A DNA stretch of 64,000 nt from assembly GCA_003211695.1 (NCBI GenBank), contig QCSA01000001.1:99116-163115 (forward strand), written 5' to 3'. Shown here piece after piece: positions 2,486 to 60,792 of the stretch. Position 1 is the stretch's first letter. Every line of letters begins with the position of its first letter. Below the pieces are notes generated by a model, which was given only the letters and a program-made list of their open reading frames with translations, did no database searches and had not been told where the DNA came from. The translations under genes were made by a program, and so were the position numbers. This DNA comes from Pelagibacteraceae bacterium AG-464-P07 (GTDB lineage: Bacteria; Pseudomonadota; Alphaproteobacteria; Pelagibacterales; Pelagibacteraceae).

Positions 2486-3469
2486 ATGAAGCAAACGACT
2501 AATTATCGAATTGATAATCTGCAATATTGTAATTGGTCTAGAGAAATATTTCAGATTAATAGTGAAGCAAAATTAGATGCCGTTCATGTAACCATAGCTT
2601 ACCATGAAGACTTTAATGAAGTTAAGAAGAATGTAGAAACATGGAATAAACACTTTCAAGAGTATAAAAATTTAATTATTCATGGAAAAACATTTCAAGA
2701 TATTGAAAAAGCTCATCAAGAAAAGAAAACGGCAATCTTTTTTGGTTTCCAAAACTGTTCCCCAATAGAAGATGATATTGGCTTGGTTGAATCCGTTCAT
2801 AAAATGGGAGCAAGATTTATGCAACTTACTTATAATAATCAATCATTATTGGCGACAGGTTGTTACGAAAAAACTGATAGCGGAGTCACAAGAATGGGTA
2901 AAGAAGTTATCAAAGAGATGAATAGACTAGGAGTGGTTATTGACATGTCCCATTCCGCAGAAAAATCTACACTAGATGCAATTGAATTATCATCTAAACC
3001 TATTGCAATTACTCATGCAAATCCGTCATTTTGGTTTGCGGCTAAAAGAAATAAATCAAATGAAGTCTTAAAAGAGTTGGCAAAATCTGAGGGAATGCTT
3101 GGACTTTCTTTGTATCCTCATCATTTAAAAGATACTTCAAATTGTACTTTAGAAAGTTTTTGTGAAATGGCCGCACAAACTGCAGAACTCATGGGGATTA
3201 AACATATAGGGATTGGATCCGATCTTTGTTTAAAACAACCCAACAATGTTGTCGAGTGGATGAGAAATGGTACTTGGACAAAAACAAAAGATTATGGAGA
3301 AGGTAGCTCAAGCAATCCGCATTTTCCAAAACAGCCAAACTGGTTTGAAGATGCTCGTGGTTTTAATAATTTAGAAAAAGGTTTAAAGAAGGCTGGGTTT
3401 CAAGAAACCGAGGTAAATGACATACTGGGGAATAATTGGTATAATTTTTACCGAGGTATAAACAATTGA
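2486..3469 (+). CDS. Membrane (renal)-type dipeptidase, peptidase M19 family
   Basis: ARFMQLTYNNQSLLATGCYE, GVVIDMSHSAEKSTLDAIELSSKPIAITHAN and HIGIGSDL motifs. Confidence 0.8.
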   Translation: MKQTTNYRIDNLQYCNWSREIFQINSEAKLDAVHVTIAYHEDFNEVKKNVETWNKHFQEYKNLIIHGKTFQDIEKAHQEKKTAIFFGFQNCSPIEDDIGLVESVHKMGARFMQLTYNNQSLLATGCYEKTDSGVTRMGKEVIKEMNRLGVVIDMSHSAEKSTLDAIELSSKPIAITHANPSFWFAAKRNKSNEVLKELAKSEGMLGLSLYPHHLKDTSNCTLESFCEMAAQTAELMGIKHIGIGSDLCLKQPNNVVEWMRNGTWTKTKDYGEGSSSNPHFPKQPNWFEDARGFNNLEKGLKKAGFQETEVNDILGNNWYNFYRGINN

Positions 3470-5136
3470 ATAAACCTAATATAAAACTTCGTGATCCTTC
3501 AATCGTGATGAAGTTATCTAGACTTGGTTCATTCCATCAATCTAAATTATCATTTCTTAGAAGTTTTATAAGAGAATTTAAAAAGTGGAATTATAAAAGA
3601 AATTTATTTGATCTTGATAAAAATGGTTATGGTACTGCGGTATACTCATTTGAAAAAAATGGAAGAAATTATTCATTAATTTGTTTTGCACAACATATCG
3701 AGCCTTATGAAAGGTCAGACAGGGTGATTGCCACAAAATGGGATGCGGCATTTGTTTTACATGATGGACTTCCTACAGAGGAAGATATTGATCGTCTTCG
3801 AGACAACGTTCCTAAACAAGAAATAGGGAGAGTATCTTGTAAGGAACTTACTTTATCTAGGGCAAATAAATCAATAAGAGCATTTGAACACGTAGTTGAT
3901 TCATTAAGCCAAGGCAATCAGCCTAATAAAGATTTATTAAGTAAGGTTGGATACTTATATCGAACAACAGCAGTTTATGGATCAGGAAAATTTGGACTTG
4001 CTGACCGCTTTAGAATTAAAGATAGAAAAGAAATTTACGGACCTTTTAGATTGGAAATGATGTTGGTTTATTTGGTTCGCCAGTTTACTTTTGATCAAGT
4101 AAATCATATTGCAAAATCCAAGAATCCAGACAAAGCGATTACGCTTGATGAAGATATTGCAAGAAACCTAGGAATTGGAAATTCAACAGGCTTAGGGATG
4201 GCACCTTTTTTAGTTAATCATCCGACACTATTACATAATTGGATTTATTGTAGAGAAAAAGCATTGAAAGATATTAGATCTATTAAAGACGTTAAAATTG
4301 ATGATTTTAATCTTTTTAAAGAGTGTTTTAATAAATCAAAACTGAGCATAGATACATGGATAACAGACAGCCAGTACCAGATTAATAAAATTAAAGCCTT
4401 AAAATCTGATTTAAGTAAATTTACTCAATATCTAGAAAATGAATGTTCGATTAAAATTAATTATTTGTGGAATAAAATTTATGTTTGGAATGCCGATAAT
4501 CTTGGAGAAGAATGTATTGAATATATTGTATCCATGATGATGGAACCTTATGACAAAATTATTGATCCATTAATTAATGAAATGAGTTCGGAAGAAGAGA
4601 AGTACTTCAATATTCCTACAGATAGAAAAGTTTCAGATCTTAAAGTAATTCTAGAAAATAATTATAAATCAATTATCAAAATTGATTTCAAAGAAAAAAG
4701 TAATACTGCAAATTTTTGGTTTATATCCAAAAACAAAGAAGAACCTAGAGTGGCCAACAGATATGAGGAGCATGGTTCAGAATTGGAACAACCATTAGCA
4801 ATAGCAAGAGATACTAAATTACTTTATGAAAGATTAGTAAAAGCAAAACCAACAGATACTGTTGCTGAATTTTTATTTAGTAATGAGGATGTAAGGCACG
4901 TTGTTAGGAGAGCTTTTATTGTTGAAAAATTTCCATATTCCGAAATTCAAGACAATACGATTGGTACTTCATTAGTACCAATAGATATGCTTCGTCTGAA
5001 ACTTTCTTTTTTTGGAGCTGTCAAATTTGATCCTAGATCCGATAAGTGGCTTAGGATAAACATGTATCAAGGGGCACCACTGCCTCATGAAATGAAATTT
5101 TCAAGTGATACCTGGGTTTATAATTCACTTCATTAA
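3466..5136 (+). CDS. Conserved-looking protein of unknown function (556 aa)
   Basis: Long ORF with 4-bp overlap to upstream dipeptidase; no family recognised. Confidence 0.75.
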   Translation: MNKPNIKLRDPSIVMKLSRLGSFHQSKLSFLRSFIREFKKWNYKRNLFDLDKNGYGTAVYSFEKNGRNYSLICFAQHIEPYERSDRVIATKWDAAFVLHDGLPTEEDIDRLRDNVPKQEIGRVSCKELTLSRANKSIRAFEHVVDSLSQGNQPNKDLLSKVGYLYRTTAVYGSGKFGLADRFRIKDRKEIYGPFRLEMMLVYLVRQFTFDQVNHIAKSKNPDKAITLDEDIARNLGIGNSTGLGMAPFLVNHPTLLHNWIYCREKALKDIRSIKDVKIDDFNLFKECFNKSKLSIDTWITDSQYQINKIKALKSDLSKFTQYLENECSIKINYLWNKIYVWNADNLGEECIEYIVSMMMEPYDKIIDPLINEMSSEEEKYFNIPTDRKVSDLKVILENNYKSIIKIDFKEKSNTANFWFISKNKEEPRVANRYEEHGSELEQPLAIARDTKLLYERLVKAKPTDTVAEFLFSNEDVRHVVRRAFIVEKFPYSEIQDNTIGTSLVPIDMLRLKLSFFGAVKFDPRSDKWLRINMYQGAPLPHEMKFSSDTWVYNSLH

Positions 5137-5138
5137 TT

Positions 5139-5753
5139 ATGCAGTCGTTCAGCGAAATTGACACAACATCTAAACGGGCTTCTAAAGCAGCAGGATTTGC
5201 TTGGGGTATAGCCGAAGAAGTTGGAAAAAACATGAGAAATTTAGAGATGTTCGGATTACCAGGTGTGAAGAATTTAAATTTGTATTTTCAAAAAATTAAA
5301 GAAAATCCTACAGAAAAACCCAAAAAAATAGAAAAAGAAAACAAACCTCAAGAGAAAGAATTTTGCCCAATTCACTGTGGTACTATTTTTTTAGATAATT
5401 GCAAAGTATTGGAGAGTTTAAAAACGATTAAATTTAAAAATGTAAGCTATCCTTTGTTGTTTTTACCATTTATTAGTAGAGCTTCTGAGATAGTTGGAAA
5501 AAAAATATCAGTTCAATATGGGGAAAACAATTTTTTACTAAATTTTGATAAAACTATTTTTTTTAAAAATATTAAAAATAATGAAGTAGTTTCTTTAGCC
5601 AAAGAAGTTTCAATCGAGTTTTTAGAAAACAGTAATTCATTTTCAATTCAAGAATGGAAAGAGCTTTACAAGCTTTCAGAAAAAACATTTGTTGAAGAAA
5701 CAGAAAGCTCTAAAAAGGTTGGGGCAGGAGCAGGTTTAACGGATAACGATTGA
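5139..5753 (+). CDS. Uncharacterised protein, probable DUF3726 family
   Basis: N-terminal SEIDTTSKRASKAAGFAWGIAEEVG and C-terminal GAGAGLTDND text; 2 bp after the upstream gene. Confidence 0.6.
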   Translation: MQSFSEIDTTSKRASKAAGFAWGIAEEVGKNMRNLEMFGLPGVKNLNLYFQKIKENPTEKPKKIEKENKPQEKEFCPIHCGTIFLDNCKVLESLKTIKFKNVSYPLLFLPFISRASEIVGKKISVQYGENNFLLNFDKTIFFKNIKNNEVVSLAKEVSIEFLENSNSFSIQEWKELYKLSEKTFVEETESSKKVGAGAGLTDND

Positions 5754-5795: not shown

Positions 5796-7280
5796 ATGGA
5801 GTTTCTAAATTATTTTTCAAATGTATTCACTTTTGCAAATATTTTAATTCTTATATTAGGTACTGTTGGAGGTTTATTGATGGGAGCAGCCCCTGGTCTG
5901 AGCCCAACTATGGCAGTTGCATTATTAATTCCTTTTACTTTTCAAATGACTCCAGAGCAAGGTTTAATAATGTTAGGTGCTGTATATACATCAACTGTAG
6001 CCGGAGGAGCAATAAGTGCAATATTATTGAGAATTCCCGGAGCTCCAGCAAATATTGCAACTGTTATGGACGGGTATCCTATGGCAAAAAATGGAAGATC
6101 AACAGAAGCTCTCCATTATTGTTTTATAAGCTCCTTTATAGGAGGCGTTATTGGTATCTTAGTTTTAATTTTTTTTACACCAGTTTTAGCTGATTTTGCT
6201 TTGAAGTTTGGTCCTTCTCATATGTTCTGGATTGCAATTCTTGGAGTTACAGTTATTTCCTCACTGGACTCAAAATCGATAATCAAAGGACTTTTCTCTG
6301 GAGCAATAGGTTTGTGGTTAGCCACAATTGGCTATGACGCGGTTCTTGGTGTAGAAAGATTTGTTTTTAATCCAATTTTTTCTGGTGGCATAAATATAAT
6401 TGCAGCTTTGGTAGGATTGTTTGCAATACCTCAAGTTCTTTCAATGTTAGAGGGCAAACAAAGCCAAGCTGATCAATTTCAGATGGAAAAGAAAAGTCTA
6501 CTTGAGTCTTTTAAATATAATATTTCCAGAATCAAAGCCTTGATAGTAGGAAGTGTGACTGGAACAATTATTGGACTTATACCAGGAGCCGGAGGTCAAA
6601 TTGCTGGTCTAGTCTCTTATGCTCAAATAAAAAAAACAAGTACTAACAAGGAAAATTTTGGCAAAGGTGAACCCGATGGAATAATCGCAGCTGAATCTGC
6701 AAATAATGCGATGGTTGGTCCGTCTTTAGTGCCTTTACTTACTCTGGGTATACCAGGAAGCCCGACTGCTGCGGTATTATTAGGAGGGCTTTTAATTCAC
6801 GGTTTATTTCCAGGATCAAACTTATTTACTGTTTATGCTGAAACTACCTGGACATTTATAAACTCTCTTTTAGTTGCCCAGTTTATGATGTTAATTTTTG
6901 GATTATATATAAGTGGTTTAGCAAAATATGTAATGAAAACTCCAACTCACTATATGGCTGCTGCAATTACCATACTTGCAATTTTTGGCACATATAGTGT
7001 CCAACACAATTTTGCAGACGTAATAGTAATGCTTTTTTTGGGAACTACTATGTTTTTTTTATCTAAATTTGGTTTTACTGCGGCACCTGTAGTTTTGGGA
7101 ATTATACTTGGACCTATTGCTGAGACAAACTTTAATCAAGCCAAAATTATTGCTGACACACAAAATGGAATTTTTGATTATTTAACAGCGGGCCCATTAA
7201 ATTTAACCATAATAGCACTCTGTTTAATTTCTATATTGTATGGAGCTTATGGGGATAAAGCAAAAAAGGAAAAGAAATGA
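5796..7280 (+). CDS. tctA: Tripartite tricarboxylate transporter, large membrane subunit TctA
   Basis: GAAPGLSPTMAVALLIPFTF, LRIPGAPANIATVMDGYPMAKNG and GLIPGAGGQIAGLVSY; multi-TM. Confidence 0.9.
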   Translation: MEFLNYFSNVFTFANILILILGTVGGLLMGAAPGLSPTMAVALLIPFTFQMTPEQGLIMLGAVYTSTVAGGAISAILLRIPGAPANIATVMDGYPMAKNGRSTEALHYCFISSFIGGVIGILVLIFFTPVLADFALKFGPSHMFWIAILGVTVISSLDSKSIIKGLFSGAIGLWLATIGYDAVLGVERFVFNPIFSGGINIIAALVGLFAIPQVLSMLEGKQSQADQFQMEKKSLLESFKYNISRIKALIVGSVTGTIIGLIPGAGGQIAGLVSYAQIKKTSTNKENFGKGEPDGIIAAESANNAMVGPSLVPLLTLGIPGSPTAAVLLGGLLIHGLFPGSNLFTVYAETTWTFINSLLVAQFMMLIFGLYISGLAKYVMKTPTHYMAAAITILAIFGTYSVQHNFADVIVMLFLGTTMFFLSKFGFTAAPVVLGIILGPIAETNFNQAKIIADTQNGIFDYLTAGPLNLTIIALCLISILYGAYGDKAKKEKK

Positions 7281-7717
7281 TTGAAATAAAAAATTTAGCA
7301 ATTGTTATTTTTGTAATGATATTATCAATATTGTTAGCTATTGCATCCTTTGGTGCAGGAAGTCCAGAAGCTTATCTTTTTCCAAGAATAATAACCTCAA
7401 CAATGTTGCTGCTATCACTTTTATTATTAGTGTTTCACTTCTATGAAAAAAATTATCAAACAGAGACAATAAATATTTCAAAACTTTCGCCAATATTAAT
7501 ATTAATTATTTTCTTCATTTTTACTGGTGAATATTTAGGGTTTTATTTCTCTACATCGATAATTTTTTTAACTGCATGTTACTTCTATTTTCCTCAAAAA
7601 AAAGATGTTAAAAAACTTCTTTTCTTTCTGCTAATTGGAACATGTTTTATGACAACAATTTATTTTCTATTTTCATTTTTATTAAAAGTTCAGGTTCCAA
7701 GATTCTTTTTATTTTAG
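7277..7717 (+). CDS. tctB: Tripartite tricarboxylate transporter, small membrane subunit TctB
   Basis: Four-TM small protein overlapping tctA by 4 bp; FPRIITSTML. Confidence 0.75.
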   Translation: MIEIKNLAIVIFVMILSILLAIASFGAGSPEAYLFPRIITSTMLLLSLLLLVFHFYEKNYQTETINISKLSPILILIIFFIFTGEYLGFYFSTSIIFLTACYFYFPQKKDVKKLLFFLLIGTCFMTTIYFLFSFLLKVQVPRFFLF

Positions 7718-7844
7718 ATTAAATTACTTATTCTTAATTTTTAAGCCCAGTATGACTTTTATTACTATTCAAAGCATTGATTAAACTTGATTGCTACATA
7801 AATTAAAAGCTATACTTACCTTTTAATCTAATAAGGGGGGATTA

Positions 7845-8843
7845 ATGAATATGAAATCTAGTTTAATAAAAAAATTATTATTAAGCTTAACGTTTATTTT
7901 ATCATTCTTTCTAGGAAATATGGCTGTGCAAGCCGGAGATTATCCTGATAGACCGATAAGTGTAGTTGTTGCATATAATCCAGGTGGTGCGACTGACTTT
8001 CAAGCAAGACTAGTTACAATGATGGCTGCTCATCCAAAAAAAGATTATTTGGGCCAGCCTATTGTTATTATTAATAAGCCTGGAGCTGGAGGCAAAGTAG
8101 GTTGGAACTGGTTTGCTTCAAAAGCTAGAAATGATGGATACGATTTAGCAGCTTATAACGTTCCGCATTTTATTTCTCAATCTATAGTATTTGATGATAC
8201 CAAATATAACATTGATAACTTAGAACCAATTGCTAACTGGGGTGCTGATCCAGCTGTATTAATAGTTGGTCCAGATAGTCAATTTAATTCTGTTGCTGAC
8301 CTTTTAAAATTTGCAAAAGCAAATCCTGGAAAAGTTACATTTTCTGGTGCAGGAAAATTTGTCGGTCACCACATTGCTTTTTTACAATTTCAAAAAGCTA
8401 GCGGTGTAAAAATAACTTATGTACCGCACACAGGTGGTGTACCCGCTTTAGCAGCTGTAAAAGGTGGACAAGTTATGGCAGGATTTAATAATCTTTCAGA
8501 TGCTTATAGAAGTCAAAAAGACATTAAGATTTTAGCTATAGCTGATCTTCAAAGAGAAGAAACTTTTTTACCTGATGTTCCAACACTTAAAGAAGAAGGT
8601 GTTGATGTTGATAATTCTAGTGTTAACTTTAGAGGCATAATGGCTCCTAAAGGTACGGATCCTAAAATTATTGAACTCTTGGCAGCTAAAGTACCTTTGA
8701 TGTTTAATGACAAGAAAACATTAGGGCAGATGAAAAAAGGTGGCTCACCTATGAGAATAATGAACAGAGCCGAAGTTCAAGCTATGTGGAAAGAAAGAAA
8801 GAAAAGCTTAACCAAACTTCTTGCTGGACTAAAAGCAGAATAA
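7845..8843 (+). CDS. tctC: Tripartite tricarboxylate transporter substrate-binding protein TctC
   Basis: Signal peptide then YPDRPISVVVAYNPGGATDFQARLV; Bug/TctC family text. Confidence 0.9.
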   Translation: MNMKSSLIKKLLLSLTFILSFFLGNMAVQAGDYPDRPISVVVAYNPGGATDFQARLVTMMAAHPKKDYLGQPIVIINKPGAGGKVGWNWFASKARNDGYDLAAYNVPHFISQSIVFDDTKYNIDNLEPIANWGADPAVLIVGPDSQFNSVADLLKFAKANPGKVTFSGAGKFVGHHIAFLQFQKASGVKITYVPHTGGVPALAAVKGGQVMAGFNNLSDAYRSQKDIKILAIADLQREETFLPDVPTLKEEGVDVDNSSVNFRGIMAPKGTDPKIIELLAAKVPLMFNDKKTLGQMKKGGSPMRIMNRAEVQAMWKERKKSLTKLLAGLKAE

Positions 8844-8866
8844 TAATTAGATAATTAAAGTAATAA

Positions 8867-8903
8867 TTTCACCCCTTTTTTGTTATATAAAAAAGGGGTG
8901 AAA
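8867..8903. terminator. Long hairpin, possible bidirectional terminator, between tctC and the aldehyde dehydrogenase gene
   Basis: tttcacccctttttt-gttatat-aaaaaaggggtgaaa, 15-bp perfect stem. Confidence 0.75.
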
Positions 8904-8927
8904 GCTAATTATTAACATTAAAAATAA

Positions 8928-10361
8928 ATGAACAATAATACTTCTACAACAGAAATAATCGATAATATTGTTCAAAAAGCAAAAATAGCACAATTAGAAT
9001 TTGAAAAATATAATCAAGAACAAGTAGATGAAGTGGTAACGGCAGTAGCATGGTCCATCTGCAATCCTACTCACAACAAATTAATTTCTGATCTAGCGGT
9101 GAGTACAACTAACCTAGGGAAAGCAGATGATAAAATAGTTAAAAATAAAAGAAAAACATTAGGACTACTCAGGGATTTAAAAAATGCAAAAACTGTTGGT
9201 GTTATTAAAGAAGATAAAGAAAAAGGAATCGTTGAGATTGCAAAACCAGTGGGAGTGGTTGCTGCTGTTACGCCATCGACAAATCCTGCAGCAACGCCAA
9301 TCAATAATATTTTAAATGCCATCAAGGGAAGAAACTCAATTATCGTTTCACCATCACCATCAGGCTTAAAAGTATTTCAGGAACTATTACATTATATAAA
9401 TCAAGAACTAAACAAAATTAAAGCACCTAAAAATTTAATACAAACCTTACCTTCACCAGTGAGTAAAGACCTTACTAAAGAATTAATGAAACAGGTTGAT
9501 CTTGTAATTGTTACAGGTTCTCAAAGTAATGTTAGAGAAGCATATTCAAGTGGTACTCCGGCAATTGGTGTTGGTCAAGGCAATGTAACTGTAATTGTTG
9601 ATGAAACCTGTGATTTAAAAGATGCTGCAAAAAAAATTAAATTATCAAAAACTTTTGATCATGCCACAAGCTGTTCATCGGAAAATAATCTAGTTGTAAT
9701 CAAAAGCATTTATGATGAATTCACCAAGTTATTGGAATTAGAGGGTGGAATATTGCTTAACGAAGATCAAAAAAATTCCCTTCAAAAAATCTTATGGAGC
9801 AATGGAAAATTAAATAGAAACATTTTAGCTAAGTCTGCTTATAAAATTTGTAAGGAATTTAATTTAAATAGAGAATATTCTGAAAAATCTCAATTTTTAA
9901 TAGTCGAAGAGAGTGGAGTTGGAAGCAAATACCCATTTTCTGGAGAAAAACTTTCTCCAGTATTATCAATCTATAGAGCCGAAGATTTTAATCACGCAAA
10001 GGATATTTCAAATAAAATTTTGAATTATCAGGGCAAAGGGCATTCCATAGGAATTCATACTAAAAATTTAGCAAGAAGTAACGAACTTGGTATGGAACTA
10101 CCGGTTTGCAGAGTCATTGTTAATCAAGCTCACGCTTTTGCAACAGGAGGAAGTTTTACAAATGGTTTGCCATTTTCCTTATCTATGGGATGTGGTACGT
10201 GGGGAAAAAATAGTATTGATGACAATTTAAATTATAAACATTTTATTAATATAACTAAAATTTCAACAGTCATTCCAGGTATAGAACCAAAACTCAAAGA
10301 TTTCTTTGAAGAATATTGTAATAAATATCATCCCAAGGAATTAAAAATTATCGATCAATGA
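8928..10361 (+). CDS. CoA-acylating aldehyde dehydrogenase, sulfoacetaldehyde dehydrogenase (acylating)-like
   Basis: AdhE/EutE/SauS-type text: KPVGVVAAVTPSTNPAATPINNILNAIKGRN, GQGNVTVIVDETCDL, FDHATSCSSENNLVV with candidate catalytic Cys. Confidence 0.8.
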   Translation: MNNNTSTTEIIDNIVQKAKIAQLEFEKYNQEQVDEVVTAVAWSICNPTHNKLISDLAVSTTNLGKADDKIVKNKRKTLGLLRDLKNAKTVGVIKEDKEKGIVEIAKPVGVVAAVTPSTNPAATPINNILNAIKGRNSIIVSPSPSGLKVFQELLHYINQELNKIKAPKNLIQTLPSPVSKDLTKELMKQVDLVIVTGSQSNVREAYSSGTPAIGVGQGNVTVIVDETCDLKDAAKKIKLSKTFDHATSCSSENNLVVIKSIYDEFTKLLELEGGILLNEDQKNSLQKILWSNGKLNRNILAKSAYKICKEFNLNREYSEKSQFLIVEESGVGSKYPFSGEKLSPVLSIYRAEDFNHAKDISNKILNYQGKGHSIGIHTKNLARSNELGMELPVCRVIVNQAHAFATGGSFTNGLPFSLSMGCGTWGKNSIDDNLNYKHFINITKISTVIPGIEPKLKDFFEEYCNKYHPKELKIIDQ

Positions 10362-11887
10362 TAGTTAAATCATTAAAGACGGTAAAGGATTACATTAAAT
10401 TTAATGAGTCACAAAAACCCAAAGATCATTTTGTCATTTGTCCTTATACCAACATAAATATTTCAAATGAAAATTTTAGGAAAAATTTAGACAAAATTAA
10501 TTACTACTTAACTGTCAAAAAAAAACAAAAAAAAAGTTCTATTCTTTGTACTTTAATTGAAAATTCCTTAAGCAGTGTACAACTCATGTTAGGAATCATG
10601 TATTCCGGTATGATTCAAGTTCCATTAAACATTGTTGCAGGGGAAGAGCAGCTTTCTTATGTAGTTAATCACTCTGCTGCTAAAATTATTTTTGTGTCAT
10701 CGAAATATCTAAATTTAGCTCAGAAAATTACAGCAAATATTCCACATGATATTGAAATTATTGAAATCAATAAAGATTCTTTTGTAGATCAACTTGAAAT
10801 ATCTTATGAGGAAATTAAAATTGATATTGATCAACACGATCCAGCTTTTCTTATTTATACATCAGGTACTACAGGTAAACCTAAAGGGGTAATGCTCTCT
10901 CATAGCAATATACTTGCAGGCGGCAAGAATGTGATGCTTTCTCATAAGATCAACACCAATGATAGAGCTTTATGTGTATTGCCTCTTTTTCATATAAATG
11001 GGGCGATAGTTACAATTATGGGACCTTTGGTTAGTCAGAGTTCATTGGTTTTGTGCGAACGTTTTTCGGTAACGAACTTTTGGAAATTTATTAGTAAATT
11101 TAAATGTACCTGGTTTAGTGTAGTACCTACTATTATTAGCGCTTTATTGAACAAATTTTCAGAGGATGAAATAAATAGTTTAGATTTATCTAGTCTAAGA
11201 TTTGGAAGGACTGCATCTGCAGCTCTAGCACCTGAAACTCATAAAAAATTTGAAGAAAAATTTAAAACAACAATGATTGAAACCATGGGTTTAACCGAAA
11301 CTTGCGCACCTATACTATCAAATCCCTTACCACCAGATAAAATAAAATATGGTTCACCCGGAATTCCATATGGAAATGAAGTTAAAATCGTTGATGAAAA
11401 ATTAAGAGATGTACCTAGAAACACTATTGGTCAAATTTGCGTAAAAGGACCAAATGTTATGAAGGAATATTATAAAAATTCAGAAGAAACCAAAAAAAGT
11501 TTTATTGATGATTGGTTTTTAACCGGTGATCTAGGTTTTATGGATGAAGAAAATTATGTTTTTGTTCGAGGAAGAATAAAAGAATTAATTATTAAAGGAG
11601 GTGAAAATATTTCACCTCGCGAAATTGACGATGTTTTGTATCAACATCCAAACGTAGTTGAGGCAGCAGCATTTGCTATGCCGTGCAATCATTATGGTGA
11701 AAGAGTAGAAGCTGGAGTAGTTTTAAATAAAGAAAAATCATTAAAAGAGAATGAACTTATTTCACATTGTAAAAAATTTTTAGGCGATTTTAAATCGCCA
11801 AGCAAAATACATTTTTTTAATAAATTGCCCAAAGGTTCTTCAGGAAAAATACAAAGGCTTAAAATTAAAGACCTGATACACAAATAA
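10358..11887 (+). CDS. AMP-forming acyl-CoA synthetase/ligase (SauT-like candidate)
   Basis: AMP-binding motif IYTSGTTGKPKGVMLSH, WFLTGDLGFMDEENYVFVRGRIKELIIKGGENISP, C-terminal KLPKGSSGKIQR; 4-bp overlap with upstream gene. Confidence 0.88.
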   Translation: MIVKSLKTVKDYIKFNESQKPKDHFVICPYTNINISNENFRKNLDKINYYLTVKKKQKKSSILCTLIENSLSSVQLMLGIMYSGMIQVPLNIVAGEEQLSYVVNHSAAKIIFVSSKYLNLAQKITANIPHDIEIIEINKDSFVDQLEISYEEIKIDIDQHDPAFLIYTSGTTGKPKGVMLSHSNILAGGKNVMLSHKINTNDRALCVLPLFHINGAIVTIMGPLVSQSSLVLCERFSVTNFWKFISKFKCTWFSVVPTIISALLNKFSEDEINSLDLSSLRFGRTASAALAPETHKKFEEKFKTTMIETMGLTETCAPILSNPLPPDKIKYGSPGIPYGNEVKIVDEKLRDVPRNTIGQICVKGPNVMKEYYKNSEETKKSFIDDWFLTGDLGFMDEENYVFVRGRIKELIIKGGENISPREIDDVLYQHPNVVEAAAFAMPCNHYGERVEAGVVLNKEKSLKENELISHCKKFLGDFKSPSKIHFFNKLPKGSSGKIQRLKIKDLIHK

Positions 11888-11930: not shown

Positions 11931-13217
11931 TTAGAACTGTTCGGTTTCGGTTGAATCTTTCATTGCTGTTGTGGAACTTTCACCGGAGCTAATTGTATTT
12001 GATACAGCGTCAAAGTATGTGGTGCCGACTTCTTTTTGATGTTTAGTAGCGGTATAACCATCACTTTCACTTGCAAACTCTTGTTGCTGTAAAGCTGAGT
12101 AAGCAGTCATTCCACTTTTCTTATATTTTCTTGCTAAATCAAAAACCGCATAATTTTGAGCATGAAATCCCGCCAAGGTTATAAATTGAAACTTATAACC
12201 CATCTTACCCATTTCTACTTGGAAGTTTTTTATTTCATTGTCTGATAAATTTTTTTTCCAATTAAATGATGGCGAACAGTTATAAGCTAGTAGTTTACCT
12301 GGAAACTTACCATGAATTGCTTCCGCAAAAGTAAAAGCTTCTTTCAAGTCAGGTTTAGCTGTTTCGCACCAAATCAAATCACTGTAAGGAGCATAAGCTA
12401 GACCTCTAGAAATAGCTTGGTCTAAACCTTCCTTCACATAATGAAATCCTTCAGGTGATCGTTTTCCAGTTAAAAAAGGTTTATCATTCTTATCAAAATC
12501 ATTGGTAATTAATTTTGCAGCATTCGCATCAGTTCTGGCTAAAATTATTAGAGGAACACCCATCACATCTGCTGCAAGTCTTGCAGATTTTAAATTTCTG
12601 ATCATTGTTTGTGTTGGCACTAAAACTTTTCCACCCATATGACCACATTTTTTTTCCGAAGCAAGTTGATCTTCGAAGTGAACCCCAGCAGTTCCGGCTT
12701 TTATAAATTTTTTTGTTAATTCAAATACATTTAGTGGTCCACCAAATCCGGCCTCTCCATCAGCGATAATTGGCATATGAAAATCCATTTTATCTTTATT
12801 ATCAATTTTTCCTTCGACAATTTCCATATGTTGAATTTGATCCGCTCTTATCAAAGCATTGTTCATTGCTTCAACTAATTTAGGAGCACTATCATAAGGA
12901 TATAAACTTTGATCAGGATACATTTCACCTGCGCTATTTGCATCTGCGGCAACCTGCCATCCACTTAAATAAATTGCTTTCAATCCTGCTTTAGCATGTT
13001 GAACAGCTTGATTTCCCGACAGTGATCCTAGCGTATTTACGTAAGGTTCGGTATTTAATAACTTCCAGAGTTTTTGCGATTGATTCTTACAAAGAGTATA
13101 TTCAATATTAAAAGTACCTCTTAACTTTTCTACCTCTTGTTCTGTATAATCTCTTTTAATTCCAGCAAATCTTTTTAGGTCATACGAAACATTACCAGTG
13201 CTAGTTTTGGTTCCCAT
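11931..13217 (-). CDS. aceA: Isocitrate lyase
   Basis: [21 protein letters not shown] (catalytic KKCGH), [35 protein letters not shown]. Confidence 0.95.
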
Positions 13218-23437: not shown

Positions 23438-24166
23438 ATGAATTTCTCCCTAGAAATTGGTTTAAAGACCAATCTGAAAAACCTTCCAAAAGTTAAAGAT
23501 GTTTATATAACTTTGCTTCCTGGTGAAGATTTTAGACAAGTTGCTGAGAAAGCAAAGGAACTAGCAAATTTGAGTTTTAATCCAGTACCTCATTTTCCAG
23601 CCAGATCAATTAAAAACCTGGATATTTTAAAGGACTATGTAATGAGATGTAAAGATGGTGGAGTTAAACAAGCATTAGTTATAGGAGGGAGCGCCCAACC
23701 AGTCGGAGATTTTCATTGTTCTTTACAACTATTAGAGACAGGATTATTCGAGGGTTTTAGAATAGGAATTGCTGGACATCCCGACGGCTCTCCTGATATA
23801 TCCATCTCGGATTTAGAAAAAGCTATGAGGGAAAAAAAGCCTTATGCAGATTATATTGTAACCCAGTGGCTAATGGAATATGATCCAATAATAAAATTCG
23901 TTTCTAAACAAACAATACCAGTGCATGTTGGAATCACAGGGCCAATGAAAGTTAGCGGTTTGCTAAAATTTGCCAATACTGTTGGAGCAAAAAATTCAAT
24001 AAATTTTATAAAATCAAATCTAGGTAAAACATTTGATTTATTAAGACCTAAGGATCCCAATGATTTAATCGAGAAAGTTAAAAGTGTAACGAGTAACTTT
24101 CATATTTATACATTCGGTGGACTTAAGGAAACAAACACATGGTTGACGGAGAATAATTATGCCTAA
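23438..24166 (+). CDS. Methylenetetrahydrofolate reductase-like protein (short MetF family)
   Basis: VYITLLPGEDF, NPVPHFPARSI, RIGIAGHPDGSPDIS, ADYIVTQWLMEYDPIIKF. Confidence 0.8.
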   Translation: MNFSLEIGLKTNLKNLPKVKDVYITLLPGEDFRQVAEKAKELANLSFNPVPHFPARSIKNLDILKDYVMRCKDGGVKQALVIGGSAQPVGDFHCSLQLLETGLFEGFRIGIAGHPDGSPDISISDLEKAMREKKPYADYIVTQWLMEYDPIIKFVSKQTIPVHVGITGPMKVSGLLKFANTVGAKNSINFIKSNLGKTFDLLRPKDPNDLIEKVKSVTSNFHIYTFGGLKETNTWLTENNYA

Positions 24167-25568
24167 AAAGAAAAAAGCTAAAAAAATTAAATCAGTTTCA
24201 TTCAAACCTGAAAAAGTAAATTACGACAAGTTAAAACATACAACTTCAGTAGATCAATCAGACAGACATGTTCCTTATAATCTTAGACAAAGCGGATCTA
24301 CAAAAGTTGAAATGTTAATTTCAACACGGGTTAGAAAATCTCCTTATTGGCATCTATCAATGAAAGCTGGATGCTGGAGAGCTACAGTTTATAATCGTGT
24401 TTATCATCCAAGAGGTTATGTAAAACCTGAAAAAGGTGGGGCAATGGTTGAGTACGCAGCGATTAAAAATCACGTAACGATGTGGAATGTAGCTGTTGAA
24501 AGACAAATACGTGTTAAAGGATCTGATGCAGAAAAATTTACAGATTATGTAATTACGCGCGATGCAACTAAAATTTCAACAATGAGAGGTCGTTACGTTA
24601 TTCTTTGCAATAATAAAGGTGGCGTATTAAACGACCCAGTTTTATTAAGAGTAGCTGATGATGAATTTTGGTTTAGTTTATCAGATTCTGATATTGGAAT
24701 GTACTTACAAGGTGTTAATGCCGATAAAAGATTCAATGTAGAAATAGACGAAATAGATGCAAGTCCGGTTCAGATACAAGGTCCTAAATCAAAAGCATTA
24801 ATGAATGATTTAATAGGAGATCAAGTTGATCTAGATAACATGCCTTTTTATGGTTTAGCGGAAGCTAAAATAGGAGGCAGAAGCTGTGTGATTTCTCAAT
24901 CAGGATTTTCTGGGGAAGCAGGCTACGAAATTTATCTTCGTAATGCTACTTTATATGCAGAAGACATGTGGAATACTGTGCTTAAAGCAGGAAAAAAACA
25001 TAAGTTAATGGTTATAGCACCCGCACACCACAGAAGAATTCAAGCTGGAATTTTATCTTGGGGCCAGGATATGGATAATGAGCACAATCCTTTTCAGTGT
25101 AATTTAGGCTATCAAGTTTCTTTATCTGGAAAAGGTGAATGGAATAAAACAACTGATTATGTCGGTAAAGAAGCTTTAGAGAAAATGAAGGATCAAATTA
25201 GCAATGGTAGCAAACCTTACAAACTTCAACTTGTAGGCTTAGAATTAGGTGGAAAACCTATCGAGGAATATGCTCCCGACTTCTGGTTAATATCAGATGC
25301 CAAAGGTGGTAAACCAATTGGCTACATTACTTCACCTTGGTACCACCCAGAAAAGAAAAAAAATATTGCTATGGGTTACGTTCCTTATGAAGGACACAAA
25401 AACGCTAAAGGGTTTCCAACTGGAAATTTTGGCAAGAAATATAAAGTCTATTTACCAAAAAAATATTCTAAAAGTCCTGTGAAAGCCGTAGTTGTTCCTA
25501 TACCATTTACACAGTCCTTTAATGCAAATACACGGGAATCGGAAGTTTTAGCTGCTTTAAATAAATAA
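24159..25568 (+). CDS. GcvT-family THF-dependent methyltransferase/demethylase (DmdA/LigM-like)
   Basis: MWNVAVERQIRVKGSDAEKF, VQIQGPKSKALM, GFSGEAGYEIYL, ILSWGQDMDNEHNPFQCNLGYQVSL; overlaps MetF-like gene by 8 bp. Confidence 0.8.
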   Translation: MPKKKKAKKIKSVSFKPEKVNYDKLKHTTSVDQSDRHVPYNLRQSGSTKVEMLISTRVRKSPYWHLSMKAGCWRATVYNRVYHPRGYVKPEKGGAMVEYAAIKNHVTMWNVAVERQIRVKGSDAEKFTDYVITRDATKISTMRGRYVILCNNKGGVLNDPVLLRVADDEFWFSLSDSDIGMYLQGVNADKRFNVEIDEIDASPVQIQGPKSKALMNDLIGDQVDLDNMPFYGLAEAKIGGRSCVISQSGFSGEAGYEIYLRNATLYAEDMWNTVLKAGKKHKLMVIAPAHHRRIQAGILSWGQDMDNEHNPFQCNLGYQVSLSGKGEWNKTTDYVGKEALEKMKDQISNGSKPYKLQLVGLELGGKPIEEYAPDFWLISDAKGGKPIGYITSPWYHPEKKKNIAMGYVPYEGHKNAKGFPTGNFGKKYKVYLPKKYSKSPVKAVVVPIPFTQSFNANTRESEVLAALNK

Positions 25569-25584
25569 TTAGTTATAGGAGTTT

Positions 25585-26121
25585 ATGTTTGAAAATTTTA
25601 CAAAAATTATTTTTAGGTCAATTAAGCTAGACAAAAATCTTTACAAAGATCCAAATTCTTTTGGAGAATCATCTCTGTATTATGCTGGATTGATCATGGT
25701 ATTGGATGGAATGGCAGGAGCCATAGCCTTAAGTACATTCTATAAAACTAACATTATCTTTTCTGGAGTTACTGCACTTTTAAGCTGGATGGTATGGGGA
25801 GTATTGATTTATGTAATCGGAATAAAATTATTTCCTGATCCAAGCACAAATGCAAATTTTAAAAAAATCTTAATAACAGTGGGTTTTGCCCACGCCCCAG
25901 GCTTGTTCAGATTTTTTGTATTTATGCCTAGTTTATTGGTACCAATTGTATTTCTTACTCAGTTTTGGATTTTCGCATCTTTAATCATAGGAGTTAGAGA
26001 AACCTTGAATTTTAAGAGCAATTATAAGTCAGCAGGTGTAATTATAATTGCTTTTTTAATTATTTCCATAGTTTCACTCTCCTTTGTGATGGATAAGATA
26101 AATACAATGCCTATAAATTAA
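25585..26121 (+). CDS. Yip1-like multi-pass membrane protein
   Basis: Hydrophobic ORF with five or so predicted TM segments; short gap after the demethylase-like gene. Confidence 0.5.
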   Translation: MFENFTKIIFRSIKLDKNLYKDPNSFGESSLYYAGLIMVLDGMAGAIALSTFYKTNIIFSGVTALLSWMVWGVLIYVIGIKLFPDPSTNANFKKILITVGFAHAPGLFRFFVFMPSLLVPIVFLTQFWIFASLIIGVRETLNFKSNYKSAGVIIIAFLIISIVSLSFVMDKINTMPIN

Positions 26122-26186
26122 GTGAAAAAGATAGCAGGATATTTTTTTGTATTAATTTTTTTTTCTCTTTTGGAAGTTCAGTTTAA

Positions 26187-26447
26187 CTATTTATTTTCAG
26201 CAGGAACAACTTTCCCATCTTCTACCTTGGGAGGATAGTATTTCGTATCAGGTGAAATATGGCTAAAATATCTAAAAAATATTAGCGTCGATACAAGTAA
26301 AACTAAACTCAAAATAGACAGTTTTAAAACAGGAATCTTTTTCTTCTCAAATTTTAAAAGATAAATGGTGAAGTAATATCCTACAAAAGGAGAAATGATT
26401 GCAAGTAGAAGTATAATTTTTTTAATCATTATAATTAATCCAACCAC
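26187..26447 (-). CDS. Hypothetical small membrane protein
   Basis: Two to three TM stretches, C-terminal YYPPKVEDGKVVPAENK; likely start at internal MIKKIIL. Confidence 0.55.
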   Translation of the reverse strand: MVGLIIMIKKIILLLAIISPFVGYYFTIYLLKFEKKKIPVLKLSILSLVLLVSTLIFFRYFSHISPDTKYYPPKVEDGKVVPAENK

Positions 26448-27360
26448 TTCCTTCGTGTTTAAAATTAAAAATATCGGGGTGTATTATTTCCGCAAATATT
26501 TCTAGAGATTCAACTAATCGTGGTCCCGGTCTATTAAAAAATTGATTTCCATCGACTACAAAAAATTTATGATTTTTATAGGCTTTTAATGAGCGGATAT
26601 TATTGTTTTTTTTAATATAGTTATTTAGCTCTTCTTTTGTTTTTTTTATATTGAAACCACATGGTAGAAAAATAATTATTTCAGGATTTTGATCTACAAT
26701 TTCTTCAAATTTTATCCAGTGGGAATTATCACCAGATTTTCCTAATATGTTAGTTCCTCCAGCGATCTCTGCCATTTCTGGTATCCAGTTACCTGCAATC
26801 ATGAGAGGATCAATCCATTCTATGCAAGCTACTAATGGTCTTTGTTTTTTTGTAGCAGCTAAATTTTTTATTTTTTCTATTCTTATTTTTAAATTATTAA
26901 TAAGTTTATTGTTAGTTTCATTTTCTATATTAAGATCCTTTGCAACTCTTTTAATATCATTAAAAACATCATTTAAAGTATTAGGTTCTAGGGATATAAT
27001 TTTAGTTTCTCGTTTAAAATATTTACTTACTATATTTTTTACCTCTGAAAAACTTACGGCACATACATCACAATGTGCTTGAGTTATTATAAAATCTGGA
27101 TCTAATTCTTTAAGTTTTTCTATATTAACTTTGTAAACGGATAATGAATTTTCTAATATAGTATTAATTTGTTTATTGATTTCACCGCTTGTTCCTTCAA
27201 CATTTATTTTTGGTGATGTTAATTTTATTATATTATTTAAATCATTTGGGTAGTCACATTCATGGGAACATCCAACAATTGAATTTTTTTGTCCCAAAAA
27301 AGCAACGATCTCGGTTGCGCTAGGTATTAAAGTTACAATTTTATTTAGATTATTATTCAT
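26422..27360 (-). CDS. BtuF-like cobalamin/helical-backbone metal-receptor family binding protein without obvious signal peptide
   Basis: IVTLIPSATEIVAFLGQKNSIVGCSHECDYP, ITQAHCDVCAVS; N-terminus MNNNLNKIVT is not signal-like. Confidence 0.78.
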   Translation of the reverse strand: MNNNLNKIVTLIPSATEIVAFLGQKNSIVGCSHECDYPNDLNNIIKLTSPKINVEGTSGEINKQINTILENSLSVYKVNIEKLKELDPDFIITQAHCDVCAVSFSEVKNIVSKYFKRETKIISLEPNTLNDVFNDIKRVAKDLNIENETNNKLINNLKIRIEKIKNLAATKKQRPLVACIEWIDPLMIAGNWIPEMAEIAGGTNILGKSGDNSHWIKFEEIVDQNPEIIIFLPCGFNIKKTKEELNNYIKKNNNIRSLKAYKNHKFFVVDGNQFFNRPGPRLVESLEIFAEIIHPDIFNFKHEGSGWINYND

Positions 27361-27432
27361 CTTTTTTAGAACTAACTTGACCTATTATATTCTTCCATTT
27401 AGAAATTGGTAAAATTAAATCATATTTATTTT

Positions 27433-29865
27433 ATGAAATCAAAAGCCAAAGTTGTTGTCATCGGAGGAGGAGCTGTTGGAGTTAGCATGCTCTATCACTT
27501 AGCGAAAAAAGGATGGTCAGAGGTTGTTTTAGTTGAAAGGAAAGAATTAACATCAGGGTCAACTTGGCACGCAGCGGGATTATTGCCACTTTTCAATATG
27601 AGTTATTCTGTGGGTCAACTACACAAATATGCAGTTGATTTATATAAAACTTTAGAAAAAGAGACCGGAAAAAACGTTGGTTTTAGTGTCGTTTCAAATA
27701 TTCGTTTAGCGCAGACCCAGGAACGCATGGATGAATATCATCAGTACGCCGGTGTTGCAAAAACAATTGGAGTAAATGTAAAATTTTTAAAACCTGAGGA
27801 AGTAAAAAAGATTTGGCCGTTATGTAATATTGAAGGTTTAGTCGGAGCTATTCAGCATCCGGAAGACGGATATATTCAACCTGCCGATGTTACACAAGCG
27901 CTGGCAACAGGCGCGAGAAATCGTGGTGCAGAAATTTATCGTAACACTACCGTTACAGAAATCAAACAGACAAAAGATGGCTGGGTTGTTATTACAGATC
28001 AAGGTGAAATTTCTTGTGAGCATGTAGTTTCATGTAGCGGAAATTTTGCCCGCCAAACTGGCCATATGGTAGGATTAGAAATTCCAGTTATTCCTGTTCA
28101 ACATCAATATATTGTTACCGAACCTCACCCAGAAATTCAAAAAAGAAAAAAAGAAGGTAAACCAGAAATGGGTGTACTTCGAGATAGCGACTATTCTTGG
28201 TATATGAGAGAAGAGGCTGGAGGATTAATTTTGGGACCTTACGAACCTGGAGCACCTTGTTGTTATGTTGATGGTCCATCAAAAGAAAGTGAATACGAAT
28301 TATTTCAAGAAGACCTAGACCGAATAGCTCCTCATATTGAATCAGCAATTAAAAGAGTACCTGCTTTTGGAGAAGTGGGTGTTAAGAAAGTTTACAATGG
28401 AGCTATTTGTTATACTCCGGATGGAAATCCAATAGTTGGACCTGCATGGGGACTAAAAAATTTTTGGATCAATGAAGGACATAGTTTTGGAATAACAGCA
28501 GCTGGTGGTGCCGGCTGGCAACTTGCAGAATGGATTATTGAAGGGGAACCTACTGTTGATATGTTAGGTGTCGAACCTAGGAGATACGGTTCCTATGCAA
28601 CAAAATCCTATTTAATTGAGAAAAATGAAGAAGCTTATAGAAATGTTTTTATTATTCATTATCCAGATGAAGAACGAGAAGCAGGCAGACCTTTAAGACA
28701 AGCACCCTGTTATGATCGCTTGAAAAAATTAGGTGCAGTTTTTGGTCAAAAATTTGGCTGGGAACGAGCAAACTTTTTTGCAACCGATGGAGCTAAACAA
28801 GAAGATGACTGGTCTTTTAGAAGATCAAATTGGTTTAAGTCTGTTGAAAAAGAATGCAAAAATGTAAAAGAAAATGTTGGTCTATTAGATATGACAGCTT
28901 TTGCGAAATGCAGAATTAAAGGACCTAAGGCAGAAGAATTTTTGGATAAATTAGTAGCTAATAAGCTTCCAAAAAAAATAGGAAGAATTAATCTTTGTCA
29001 CGCCTTAAATACAAAAGGAGGAGTCCATTCTGAATTTACAATTATGAAAGAATCAGAAAATAGTTTTTATTTAGTATCTGCTGGAGCATTTCAAAGACTG
29101 GATCATGATTGGATTTACAAATGGATGCCAAAAGACGGATCAGTTCAGTTTGAAAATTTAACAAATAGTATCGGCGTGTTGGTTGTTTCTGGACCGAAAG
29201 CTAGACAGTTAATGCAAAAGGTTTCAAAGACTGACTTTTCTAGTGAAAAATTTAAGTGGCTAAGTGCTCAAAACATCAATATTGGCCTAGCTCCATGCAA
29301 TGCAATGAGAGTAAATTTTGTTGGAGAACTAGGTTGGGAATTACATCATCCAATTGAATATCAAAATCATATTTTTGATAAGTTAATAGAGTTTGGAAAA
29401 AGTTTAAATTTGAAACCATATGGCATTAGGGCAATGAACAGTTTAAGAGTTGAAAAATCTTATAAACTGGTTGGCACTGAACTCTCTATAGAATATTCAC
29501 CTTATGAGTCTGGACTTGATAGGTTTGTTCATCCAAATAAGGGAGATTTTATTGGTCTTGCGTCATTAAACCGTTGGAGAGAAAAAGGTTTTTCCAATAA
29601 ATTAGTTACCATGGAAGTTCATGGCGTAACTAATGCAGACGTTTTAGGCAACAATCCAATATATAGTAATGATTCTGTTGTGGGTAGAGCAACGGGAGGA
29701 GATTTTGGTTTTCGTTTAAACAAATCTATAGCTTTAGGAATGGTTAAACCTGATCTTGCAAATGTTGGGCAAAATTTAAAAATTGATATTTTAGGAAAAA
29801 TGCACAAAGTTTCAATTATTGAAGACAGTCCCTACGATCCAGAAAATAAATTGTTAAGAGCCTGA
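27433..29865 (+). CDS. Dimethylglycine/sarcosine dehydrogenase-like FAD oxidoreductase with C-terminal GcvT domains
   Basis: N-terminal KVVVIGGGAVGVSMLYHLAKKGW, STWHAAGLL; C-terminal GcvT-like FVGELGWELHHP. Internal Met preferred over ORF start at 27406. Confidence 0.87.
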   Translation: MKSKAKVVVIGGGAVGVSMLYHLAKKGWSEVVLVERKELTSGSTWHAAGLLPLFNMSYSVGQLHKYAVDLYKTLEKETGKNVGFSVVSNIRLAQTQERMDEYHQYAGVAKTIGVNVKFLKPEEVKKIWPLCNIEGLVGAIQHPEDGYIQPADVTQALATGARNRGAEIYRNTTVTEIKQTKDGWVVITDQGEISCEHVVSCSGNFARQTGHMVGLEIPVIPVQHQYIVTEPHPEIQKRKKEGKPEMGVLRDSDYSWYMREEAGGLILGPYEPGAPCCYVDGPSKESEYELFQEDLDRIAPHIESAIKRVPAFGEVGVKKVYNGAICYTPDGNPIVGPAWGLKNFWINEGHSFGITAAGGAGWQLAEWIIEGEPTVDMLGVEPRRYGSYATKSYLIEKNEEAYRNVFIIHYPDEEREAGRPLRQAPCYDRLKKLGAVFGQKFGWERANFFATDGAKQEDDWSFRRSNWFKSVEKECKNVKENVGLLDMTAFAKCRIKGPKAEEFLDKLVANKLPKKIGRINLCHALNTKGGVHSEFTIMKESENSFYLVSAGAFQRLDHDWIYKWMPKDGSVQFENLTNSIGVLVVSGPKARQLMQKVSKTDFSSEKFKWLSAQNINIGLAPCNAMRVNFVGELGWELHHPIEYQNHIFDKLIEFGKSLNLKPYGIRAMNSLRVEKSYKLVGTELSIEYSPYESGLDRFVHPNKGDFIGLASLNRWREKGFSNKLVTMEVHGVTNADVLGNNPIYSNDSVVGRATGGDFGFRLNKSIALGMVKPDLANVGQNLKIDILGKMHKVSIIEDSPYDPENKLLRA

Positions 29866-53354: not shown

Positions 53355-54131
53355 ATGAAAAAGATATTAATAATGGGTTTGCCGGGTTCTGGTAAAACAA
53401 CTTTGGCTTCAAAATTGGTACCCTTGTTAAATGCAAAAAGGCTTAATAACGATGAAGTAAGGAAAGCAGCTAATGACTGGGATTTTTCTGAAGAAGCAAG
53501 AACAAGACAAGCAAAACGCATGGGTGATTTTGCTGAGAAATATAAACAAGAAGGTCATTATGTAGTTGCGGATTTTATTTGCCCAACACCAAAAACAAGA
53601 AAATTATTTAATGCAGATTATGTTGTTTGGATAGATACAATTGAGAAAGGTAGATTTGAAGATACAAATAAAATGTTTGTAAAACCTGAAAAATTTGATT
53701 TTCAAGTTACAACACAAAATGCAGAAGTTTGGGCATATCAAATAGCAGATCAATTAATTCCATATGCATGGGATAATAAAAAACCAACGGCACAAATGTT
53801 AGGAAGATGGCAACCTTTTCATGAGGGTCATTACGCATTATTTGAAGAAATAATAAAAAAAACTGGTCAAGTTTGCATTCAAATCAGAGATGTTCAAGGG
53901 GTCGATGATAATCCATTTGATTTTGAAACAGTTAAGAAAAATATCGAACAAAAACTTTTACCAAATTTTAAGAATAGATTTAAAATAGTTCTGGTTCCCA
54001 ATATTACTAATATTTCTTATGGAAGAGGTGTGGGTTATACGATAGAGGAAGTGGTTCTTCCTGAAAAAATTCAGAATATATCAGCTACAAAAATTAGAAA
54101 AGAAATGAGAAAGAAGGGAAAGATTAAATAA
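53355..54131 (+). CDS. Fusion: N-terminal adenylylsulfate-kinase-like P-loop domain + C-terminal cytidylyltransferase/NMNAT-like nucleotidyltransferase domain
   Basis: N-term GLPGSGKTTLASKL, LNNDEVRKAANDWDFSEEARTRQAKRMGDFAEKYKQEGHYVVADFICPT; C-term GRWQPFHEGHYALFEEI and ISATKIRKEMR. Confidence 0.8.
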   Translation: MKKILIMGLPGSGKTTLASKLVPLLNAKRLNNDEVRKAANDWDFSEEARTRQAKRMGDFAEKYKQEGHYVVADFICPTPKTRKLFNADYVVWIDTIEKGRFEDTNKMFVKPEKFDFQVTTQNAEVWAYQIADQLIPYAWDNKKPTAQMLGRWQPFHEGHYALFEEIIKKTGQVCIQIRDVQGVDDNPFDFETVKKNIEQKLLPNFKNRFKIVLVPNITNISYGRGVGYTIEEVVLPEKIQNISATKIRKEMRKKGKIK

Positions 54132-55841: not shown

Positions 55842-56633
55842 ATGATTACTATTAATCCATTTTCCGAACTTTCGGAATTTATACCGTCCATTGCAATGCA
55901 GGCTTTTGTTGTTGCGATGATCATTTTGGTGGTAGCAGGAACGGTGGTTGATATGATTCATAAGAAAAATGTTAAGTACTTCTTTGAAAATGCAAAAAAG
56001 GCGAAGAAACAAGCAACTAGAACTGTTAGCACTGGAAACAAAGTATCAATTGTAATTAAAACCGTTGCAAGTGATGTTCTAACCACTTCGGAATTAGCTG
56101 GCAAACGTAGAATCGCCCATCTTCTCGGCATGTACGGTACTATAATATTCTGGGTCACTTCATCTATTATGATTTTTTGCTACTCAACAACTAAATCCGT
56201 AACGCCTCCTATCTTTCCACTACTATGGCATTTAGGAGCAATAATGACTTGTCTTGGTGGTTATTGGTTTTGGTTCTTTCTCAGAGTCGACGTTGCAGCA
56301 GAAGGTAATCCTTGGTATCGGGTTATTAAGGCAGATTTATTTGTCCTATCGCTTGTTGTGACCACTACCTTCGGTCTAGTCTGGTCTTATTTACAAGCTG
56401 CAAGCATATCTGGATGGGATACCTTGTTATTAGTTTTGTTTATTCTTTCTAACCTTGTGTTATTTGGAGGAGTGTATTGGTCTAAATTTGCTCACATGTT
56501 CTACAAGCCAGGGGCGGCTATACAGAAACACTTAGCCGAAGCAGATGGTTCAAACGAAAATTTGCCAGAACCAAGTGATAAGCCCAAACAATTTGGTCCT
56601 GGTATAAAGCGCGAAGCGCCACGACACTATTAA
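55842..56633 (+). CDS. Membrane protein upstream of adenylylsulfate reductase (AprM-like anchor)
   Basis: Multi-TM ORF immediately upstream of aprBA. Confidence 0.75.
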   Translation: MITINPFSELSEFIPSIAMQAFVVAMIILVVAGTVVDMIHKKNVKYFFENAKKAKKQATRTVSTGNKVSIVIKTVASDVLTTSELAGKRRIAHLLGMYGTIIFWVTSSIMIFCYSTTKSVTPPIFPLLWHLGAIMTCLGGYWFWFFLRVDVAAEGNPWYRVIKADLFVLSLVVTTTFGLVWSYLQAASISGWDTLLLVLFILSNLVLFGGVYWSKFAHMFYKPGAAIQKHLAEADGSNENLPEPSDKPKQFGPGIKREAPRHY

Positions 56634-60511: not shown

Positions 60512-60792
60512 TTCTTAGTTTTAACATTATGAACATGTACGTGATCTCCTTTTTTAATCGAGGCAACAACTTTTCCAATATCATGACCATATTTCAAAAT
60601 AGTATCTCCTTCTTTAAAATCTTTAAGAGCAATTTTATGACCCAGAGGTATATTGTTGATTGATTGAATTTTTACGGTTTTATTACTTTCCATAATCCAA
60701 CAACTGTATTCGTGATTTCTTTTTGTTGAATCAATTACAACGACTCCAACATTGTCTTTATCATCGTGTATAATAATGTCTGTATTACTCAT
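60505..60792 (-). CDS. suyA: SAF-domain small subunit, (R)-sulfolactate sulfo-lyase subunit A-like
   Basis: [48 protein letters not shown]. Confidence 0.78.

Follow-up and report, generated by a model that had tools for sequence, protein, structure and literature searches.

A TctABC transporter, SauS and SauT in one SAR11 cassette

The DNA analysed here is a 64-kb stretch, called the window, from the SAR11 bacterium Pelagibacteraceae AG-464-P07. At positions 5796-11887 it carries five genes on the same strand. Three encode the subunits of a tripartite tricarboxylate transporter (TTT), TctABC, and two encode a coenzyme A (CoA)-acylating aldehyde dehydrogenase, SauS by family, and an AMP-forming acyl-CoA ligase, designated SauT (Table 1). 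Here the set is considered as a candidate cassette for uptake and activation of sulfoacetate. An earlier note on this DNA had described tctABC followed by a strong hairpin and by the dehydrogenase and ligase genes with a 4-bp overlap. The reading frames and the hairpin are located exactly as it had placed them, and in a Pfam profile search all five proteins scored above the curated cut-offs. The sauS and sauT genes share ATGA at 10358-10361; likewise, tctA and tctB overlap by 4 bp.

Table 1. Genes and features of the window discussed in the text.
Feature	Position	Strand	Description	Support
tctA (SauXYZ-type TTT)	5796-7280	+	large membrane subunit of importer, 494 aa	Pfam TctA, 448 bits
tctB	7277-7717	+	small membrane subunit, 146 aa	Pfam TctB, 54 bits
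tctC	7845-8843	+	periplasmic substrate-binding protein, 332 aa	Pfam TctC, 137 bits
hairpin	8867-8903	+	between tctC and sauS	17-pair stem, 3-nt loop
sauS	8928-10361	+	CoA-acylating sulfoacetaldehyde dehydrogenase (by family), 477 aa	Pfam Aldedh, 86 bits; NCBIfam NF047625
sauT	10358-11887	+	AMP-forming acyl-CoA ligase, 509 aa	Pfam AMP-binding, 251 bits, plus AMP-binding_C
putative isocitrate lyase	11931-13217		adjoins cassette	name from sequence only
aprM-like	55842-56633	+	membrane protein, no family match	named by position before aprB; same place before aprBA in L038
aprB	56670-57140	+	adenosine phosphosulfate (APS) reductase, beta subunit	TIGR02060, 193 bits (cut-off 136)
aprA	57140-58996	+	APS reductase, alpha subunit	TIGR02061, 999 bits (cut-off 642)
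xsc	60870-62654	+	sulfoacetaldehyde acetyltransferase	TIGR03457, 951 bits (cut-off 676)

The dehydrogenase and the ligase

SauS scored 718 bits against the NCBIfam equivalog NF047625 (cut-off 600 bits); the next family reached 393 bits. In a phylogenetic tree it fell into a SauS clade of 39 rows (support 100/97), several branches of which include members linked to xsc. The clade contained two branches with support of 100/100 each, one of 15 rows linked to sauCD and one of 20 rows linked to sauT. The window protein belongs to the latter, together with Burkholderiaceae clusters of the order IclR-sauS-sauT-MFS (major facilitator superfamily) and a Paracoccus cluster which carries xsc and pta. Because of this membership we regard the dehydrogenase-ligase pair as the stable core of such clusters and the transporter as the part that is swapped. 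By family and tree position SauS presumably works as a sulfoacetyl-CoA reductase. Cys249 in the motif TSCSSENN, invariant in four aligned SAR11 SauS proteins, is its putative catalytic residue, as judged from aldehyde dehydrogenase family membership. The closest solved structure is an acylating succinate-semialdehyde dehydrogenase.

SauT, an acyl-CoA ligase of the ANL type, contains the motifs YTSGTTG at 167, GDLG at 390 and GKIQR at 496. Orthologs beside other sauS genes were 37-71% identical, and the motifs were shared by the proteins from Caballeronia (37% identity) and Paracoccus (44%). No curated SauT model was present among the best 25 of 104 NCBIfam families. The nearest solved structures are oxalate-CoA ligases, a likeness that would suit a small acid carrying two charges as substrate and does not identify the acid.

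The transporter lineage is tied to SauS

Close orthologs of TctC were searched at E <= 1e-60 in 385 alphaproteobacterial genomes and were found in nine. All nine carry SauS, as against 15 of the 376 genomes without a TctC ortholog (Fisher p = 3e-12). Eight of the nine genes are located directly beside sauS and one is split off by a contig end; in SAR11 the ortholog adjoins sauS in three of three cases. TctA and TctC of this lineage formed clades with support of 100/100, each holding sauT-linked as well as sauCD-linked members. TctC motifs such as AYN(V/I)PHF, NWGxDPAV, SGAGxFVGHH and NNLSD are common to the lineage and absent from the other TTT lineages.

The association extends to the Desulfovibrionales, the order of Bilophila. 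An orthologous TctC, 52-55% identical to that of the window, was present beside sauSCD in four of the ten loci examined. TctA was 50-55% identical and SauS just 37-40%, so TctC is better conserved than SauS; reference TTT lineages other than that of the window scored far lower at these sauSCD loci. TctC thus has been kept with SauS while the ligase type and the host phylum changed, and a shared ligand is therefore the best explanation. From this linkage we infer that the ligand common to the clusters is sulfoacetate, which makes the TctC clade a good candidate for a sulfoacetate-binding protein.

A separate observation concerns the tctC gene of the SAR11 locus L041 (6231-7223). At fourfold-degenerate sites it is 68% identical to the window tctC, and the other four genes are 36-55% identical. 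This suggests that SAR11 lineages have exchanged tctC on its own.

Distribution of the cassette

SauS was above its cut-off in 4 of 197 SAR11-family genomes, three of them with TctABC. A comparison of gene neighbourhoods, as the earlier note had envisaged for TctABC-SauST, showed that the order recurs in three SAR11 lineages, i.e. L037 (the genus of the window), L036 and L041, and in roseobacters. The genes which flank the L036 and L041 cassettes are unlike those of the window. Because the order is maintained in these lineages, two of them with different flanks, and in roseobacters, the five genes do not lie together by chance. A variant was encountered in SAR11 AG-909-F14 (L038, 5033-12814), where aprM-aprB-aprA, a small open reading frame and a TauE/SafE-family permease gene are followed by sauS and sauT; tctABC is not beside them. 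The closest match of the window SauS (96% identical) was from the single amplified genome SCGC AAA288-N07, titled alpha proteobacterium, and the next matches were titled Pelagibacteraceae. According to PMC5864233, AAA288-N07 belongs to SAR11 and was obtained from below the deep chlorophyll maximum. No SauS was found in the viral contigs searched.

Among the 385 alphaproteobacterial genomes 24 had SauS above cut-off. In 20 alphaproteobacterial sauS loci which were read, an ADP-forming ligase was beside sauS in 13 and an AMP-forming one in six. The transporter of the same loci was a TTT of the window lineage in eight, of a different lineage in four, and an MFS protein in one. Roseobacter plasmids displayed the same five-gene order including the 4-bp sauS/sauT overlap; a roseobacter plasmid locus with this order is found at 23778-29734 in Ruegeria sp. 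THAF33. In three alphaproteobacterial genomes (G550, G380 and G473) the order was tctA-tctB-tctC-sauS-sauC-sauD-xsc-...-pta, and TctC was 69-70% identical to that of the window. Two Thioglobus-type genomes had tctABC, a natural SauS::SauT fusion of 986 and 967 amino acids, respectively, and pta (L045, 3047-6007; L046, 9980-12883); the one Thioglobus genome tested for Xsc scored 1012 bits.

Xsc and the fate of sulfite

The order of ligase and acylating reductase implied a reductive direction which the earlier note considered odd unless the aldehyde is passed on to Xsc. An xsc gene does exist in the same window, 49 kb from the cassette and near aprBA and suyAB-like genes. Xsc is also encoded in all four SauS-bearing SAR11 genomes. 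When the genera g1 and g12 were pooled, Xsc accompanied SauS in three of three genomes and was present in none of eight without SauS (p = 0.006); these genera were picked after seeing the data and several of the genomes are incomplete. The genome of the window (1.14 Mb, 83% complete) further contains two PTA_PTB-family matches, a protein of 303 amino acids (119 bits, contig C9) and a longer frame (contig C34), assignments at the family level which do not distinguish Pta. Oxidation of sulfite by AprBA is possible, judging from the genes.

Several neighbouring genes were registered in passing. Divergent from xsc, on the minus strand at 59330-60792, are a suyB-like gene of the altronate-dehydratase type and a suyA-like open reading frame of 95 amino acids; use of sulfolactate by these is possible. 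A small conserved open reading frame without a Pfam match directly follows aprA in SAR11 (window 58914-59333; L038 8206-8556; L193 9609-9974). Also near aprBA, at 53355-54131, an APS-kinase-like domain is joined to a weak nucleotidyltransferase-like domain.

Proposed pathway and competing explanations

We propose, with a probability of roughly 80%, that the five genes constitute a cassette for uptake and activation of sulfoacetate. In the periplasm sulfoacetate would be bound by TctC, and the membrane complex TctAB would use an ion gradient to import it. SauT would convert it with ATP and CoA to sulfoacetyl-CoA, a step that AMP-forming chemistry would render effectively one-way. SauS would then reduce sulfoacetyl-CoA with NAD(P)H to sulfoacetaldehyde, from which Xsc and phosphate would yield acetyl phosphate and sulfite, providing a source of carbon and energy. 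Acetyl phosphate could enter central metabolism via a phosphate-acetyltransferase-family enzyme, and AprBA could oxidise the sulfite. Such a SauS/SauT-like cassette, for sulfoacetate or another short carboxylate, had been suggested before from the bare sequence. The sulfoacetate reading is well supported by the SauS equivalog match, by the presence of Xsc in the window and by relatives with a tctABC-sauS-ligase-xsc-pta block, with the substrate deduced from these genes.

Several points weigh against this proposal. In the genome of the window xsc does not adjoin the cassette. Xsc is also encoded in 94 of 193 SAR11 genomes without SauS, and over the family its co-occurrence with SauS reached p = 0.06; because Xsc is common in SAR11 this co-occurrence is marginal and weak evidence. 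No ATP sulfurylase for the step from APS to sulfate was found in the 83%-complete genome. Finally, because the structures nearest to SauT and SauS are oxalate-CoA ligases and a succinate-semialdehyde dehydrogenase, the sequences by themselves would accommodate other short dianions.

The dianion suggested by the ligase structures is oxalate. TctABC would import it, the ligase would generate oxalyl-CoA and the dehydrogenase glyoxylate, which would feed the isocitrate lyase predicted next door, so named from its sequence, and glyoxylate metabolism. Moreover, H212 and S287 are invariant in the SauT set and align with H214 and S289 of AtAAE3, which we take to be the oxalate-contacting residues. However, the isocitrate lyase gene accompanies the cassette only within the same genus (L037), and three other SAR11 lineages lack it at this place; what recurs near the cassettes of relatives is xsc, pta or aprBA instead. 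Since the dehydrogenase passes the SauS equivalog and the TctC clade is common to sauSCD clusters, we consider an oxalate cassette quite improbable. A different short acid, such as malonate, succinate, 3-sulfopropionate or sulfolactate, might be converted to the matching semialdehyde. The structural relationship of SauS to succinate-semialdehyde dehydrogenase would agree with this, as would the suyAB-like genes in the window and the range of carboxylates taken up by TTT importers, which includes sulfolactate in the case of SlcHFG (PMC5812351). Yet suyAB is unlinked to the cassette, the family score is specific for SauS, and in relatives both SauS and the orthologous transporter are linked to xsc and pta, a combination which, of all the aldehydes in question, suits sulfoacetaldehyde alone; another acid thus appears unlikely.

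The direction of flow has to be considered as well. SauS-type enzymes are reversible, and in the SqwD/SqwKL variant sulfoacetaldehyde is oxidised to sulfoacetate (PMC12890257). Taurine-derived sulfoacetaldehyde might then be oxidised and excreted as sulfoacetate, as in organisms with SqwD/SqwKL or SafD. Here, the ligase is AMP-forming and not of the ADP-forming SauCD/SqwKL type, the transporter is a binding-protein-dependent importer, and Xsc is available to consume the aldehyde. We give outward flow very little credence.

The tctC-sauS hairpin and the surroundings of the cassette

The hairpin, called strong in the earlier note, is indeed so. The intergenic RNA between tctC and sauS has a fold energy of -25.9 kcal/mol compared with -9.1 +/- 2.9 kcal/mol in shuffled sequences, and because of z = -5.8 it is not a chance structure. 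In most relatives a hairpin of unrelated sequence exists at the same position between tctC and sauS. It is probably an mRNA-processing or expression-stepping element. An ordinary intrinsic terminator was considered and is unlikely; a weak T-rich tail passes the scan, and a clean U run is absent on the plus strand. Promoter scans yielded 31 sites compared with 30 in shuffled sequences, i.e. no excess. In base composition the cassette does not stand out as foreign, GC being 0.30-0.34 throughout. Directly upstream of tctA, at 3466-5753, a protein of 556 amino acids that matched no family of Pfam or NCBIfam and a DUF3726 protein are encoded, an arrangement kept in L037.

Implications for SAR11

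SAR11 bacteria rank with the most abundant heterotrophs of the sea. If the proposed pathway operates, sulfoacetate would be added to the organic sulfur foods of a few SAR11 lineages, and SauS together with the linked TctC would serve as a specific marker by which users of sulfoacetate could be recognised in ocean metagenomes. The natural SauS::SauT fusion unites both coupled reactions in a single polypeptide. We hold more tentatively, at somewhat less than even odds, a wider view: some SAR11, including a relative of AAA288-N07, would live partly on dissolved sulfoacetate, the cassette would have been gained ready-made by horizontal transfer with a swappable transporter (a TTT in three lineages and a permease of the TauE/SafE family in a fourth), and sulfoacetate would have gone unnoticed as a currency of organic sulfur in the sea.

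Relation to known systems

The same arrangement of genes has been described before in other bacteria. No earlier report of sulfoacetate genes in SAR11 was found in a literature search which missed most subscription journals. Apparently new are the sporadic presence of this arrangement in SAR11, the SauS::SauT fusion and the SAR11 variant in which a TauE/SafE permease replaces TctABC; for the latter two no earlier description was met in the literature, and no search was aimed at them.

According to the account given in PMC12625764 of SauSTU from Cupriavidus necator H16 (Weinitschke et al., 2010, J Biol Chem 285:35249), SauS is directly followed there, as in the window, by the AMP-forming SauT, and the inferred route from sulfoacetate via sulfoacetyl-CoA to sulfoacetaldehyde would be the same. 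Unlike in that account, where the importer SauU is an MFS protein, the importer here is a TTT, and none of the genes adjoining the window cassette appears to encode a regulator of the IclR type. The TctABC of the window finds its counterpart in SauXYZ, a TTT and putative sulfoacetate transporter of Bilophila wadsworthia (PMC12625764). The SauXYZ-SauSCD system (Liu et al., 2023, J Biol Chem 299:105010), as outlined in PMC12625764 and PMC12890257, pairs a TTT as importer and an acylating sulfoacetaldehyde dehydrogenase, as does the cassette, a comparison made through Desulfovibrionales relatives and not through the sequence of B. wadsworthia itself. In that outline, the ligase is the ADP-forming SauCD and the product proceeds via isethionate, whereas the cassette has an AMP-forming ligase and its genome encodes Xsc. 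SlcHFG of Roseovarius and Chromohalobacter, a TTT for sulfolactate (PMC5812351), resembles the proposed importer in taking up a small sulfonate and in having tctA followed by tctB, a likeness by description and not by sequence; its ligand differs. A TTT in the service of sulfoacetate, seen earlier as a possible new solution, is therefore not new: in addition to SauXYZ, a hybrid type of TTT plus sauST has been described in the Arctic sponge symbionts OTU1 and OTU4, the latter assigned to Amylibacter/Halichondribacter, and Pelagibacter is not mentioned (PMC12625764, 2025). The cassette of the window resembles these hybrid clusters in joining a TTT to sauS and an AMP-forming sauT, and differs from them in that its host is a SAR11 bacterium.

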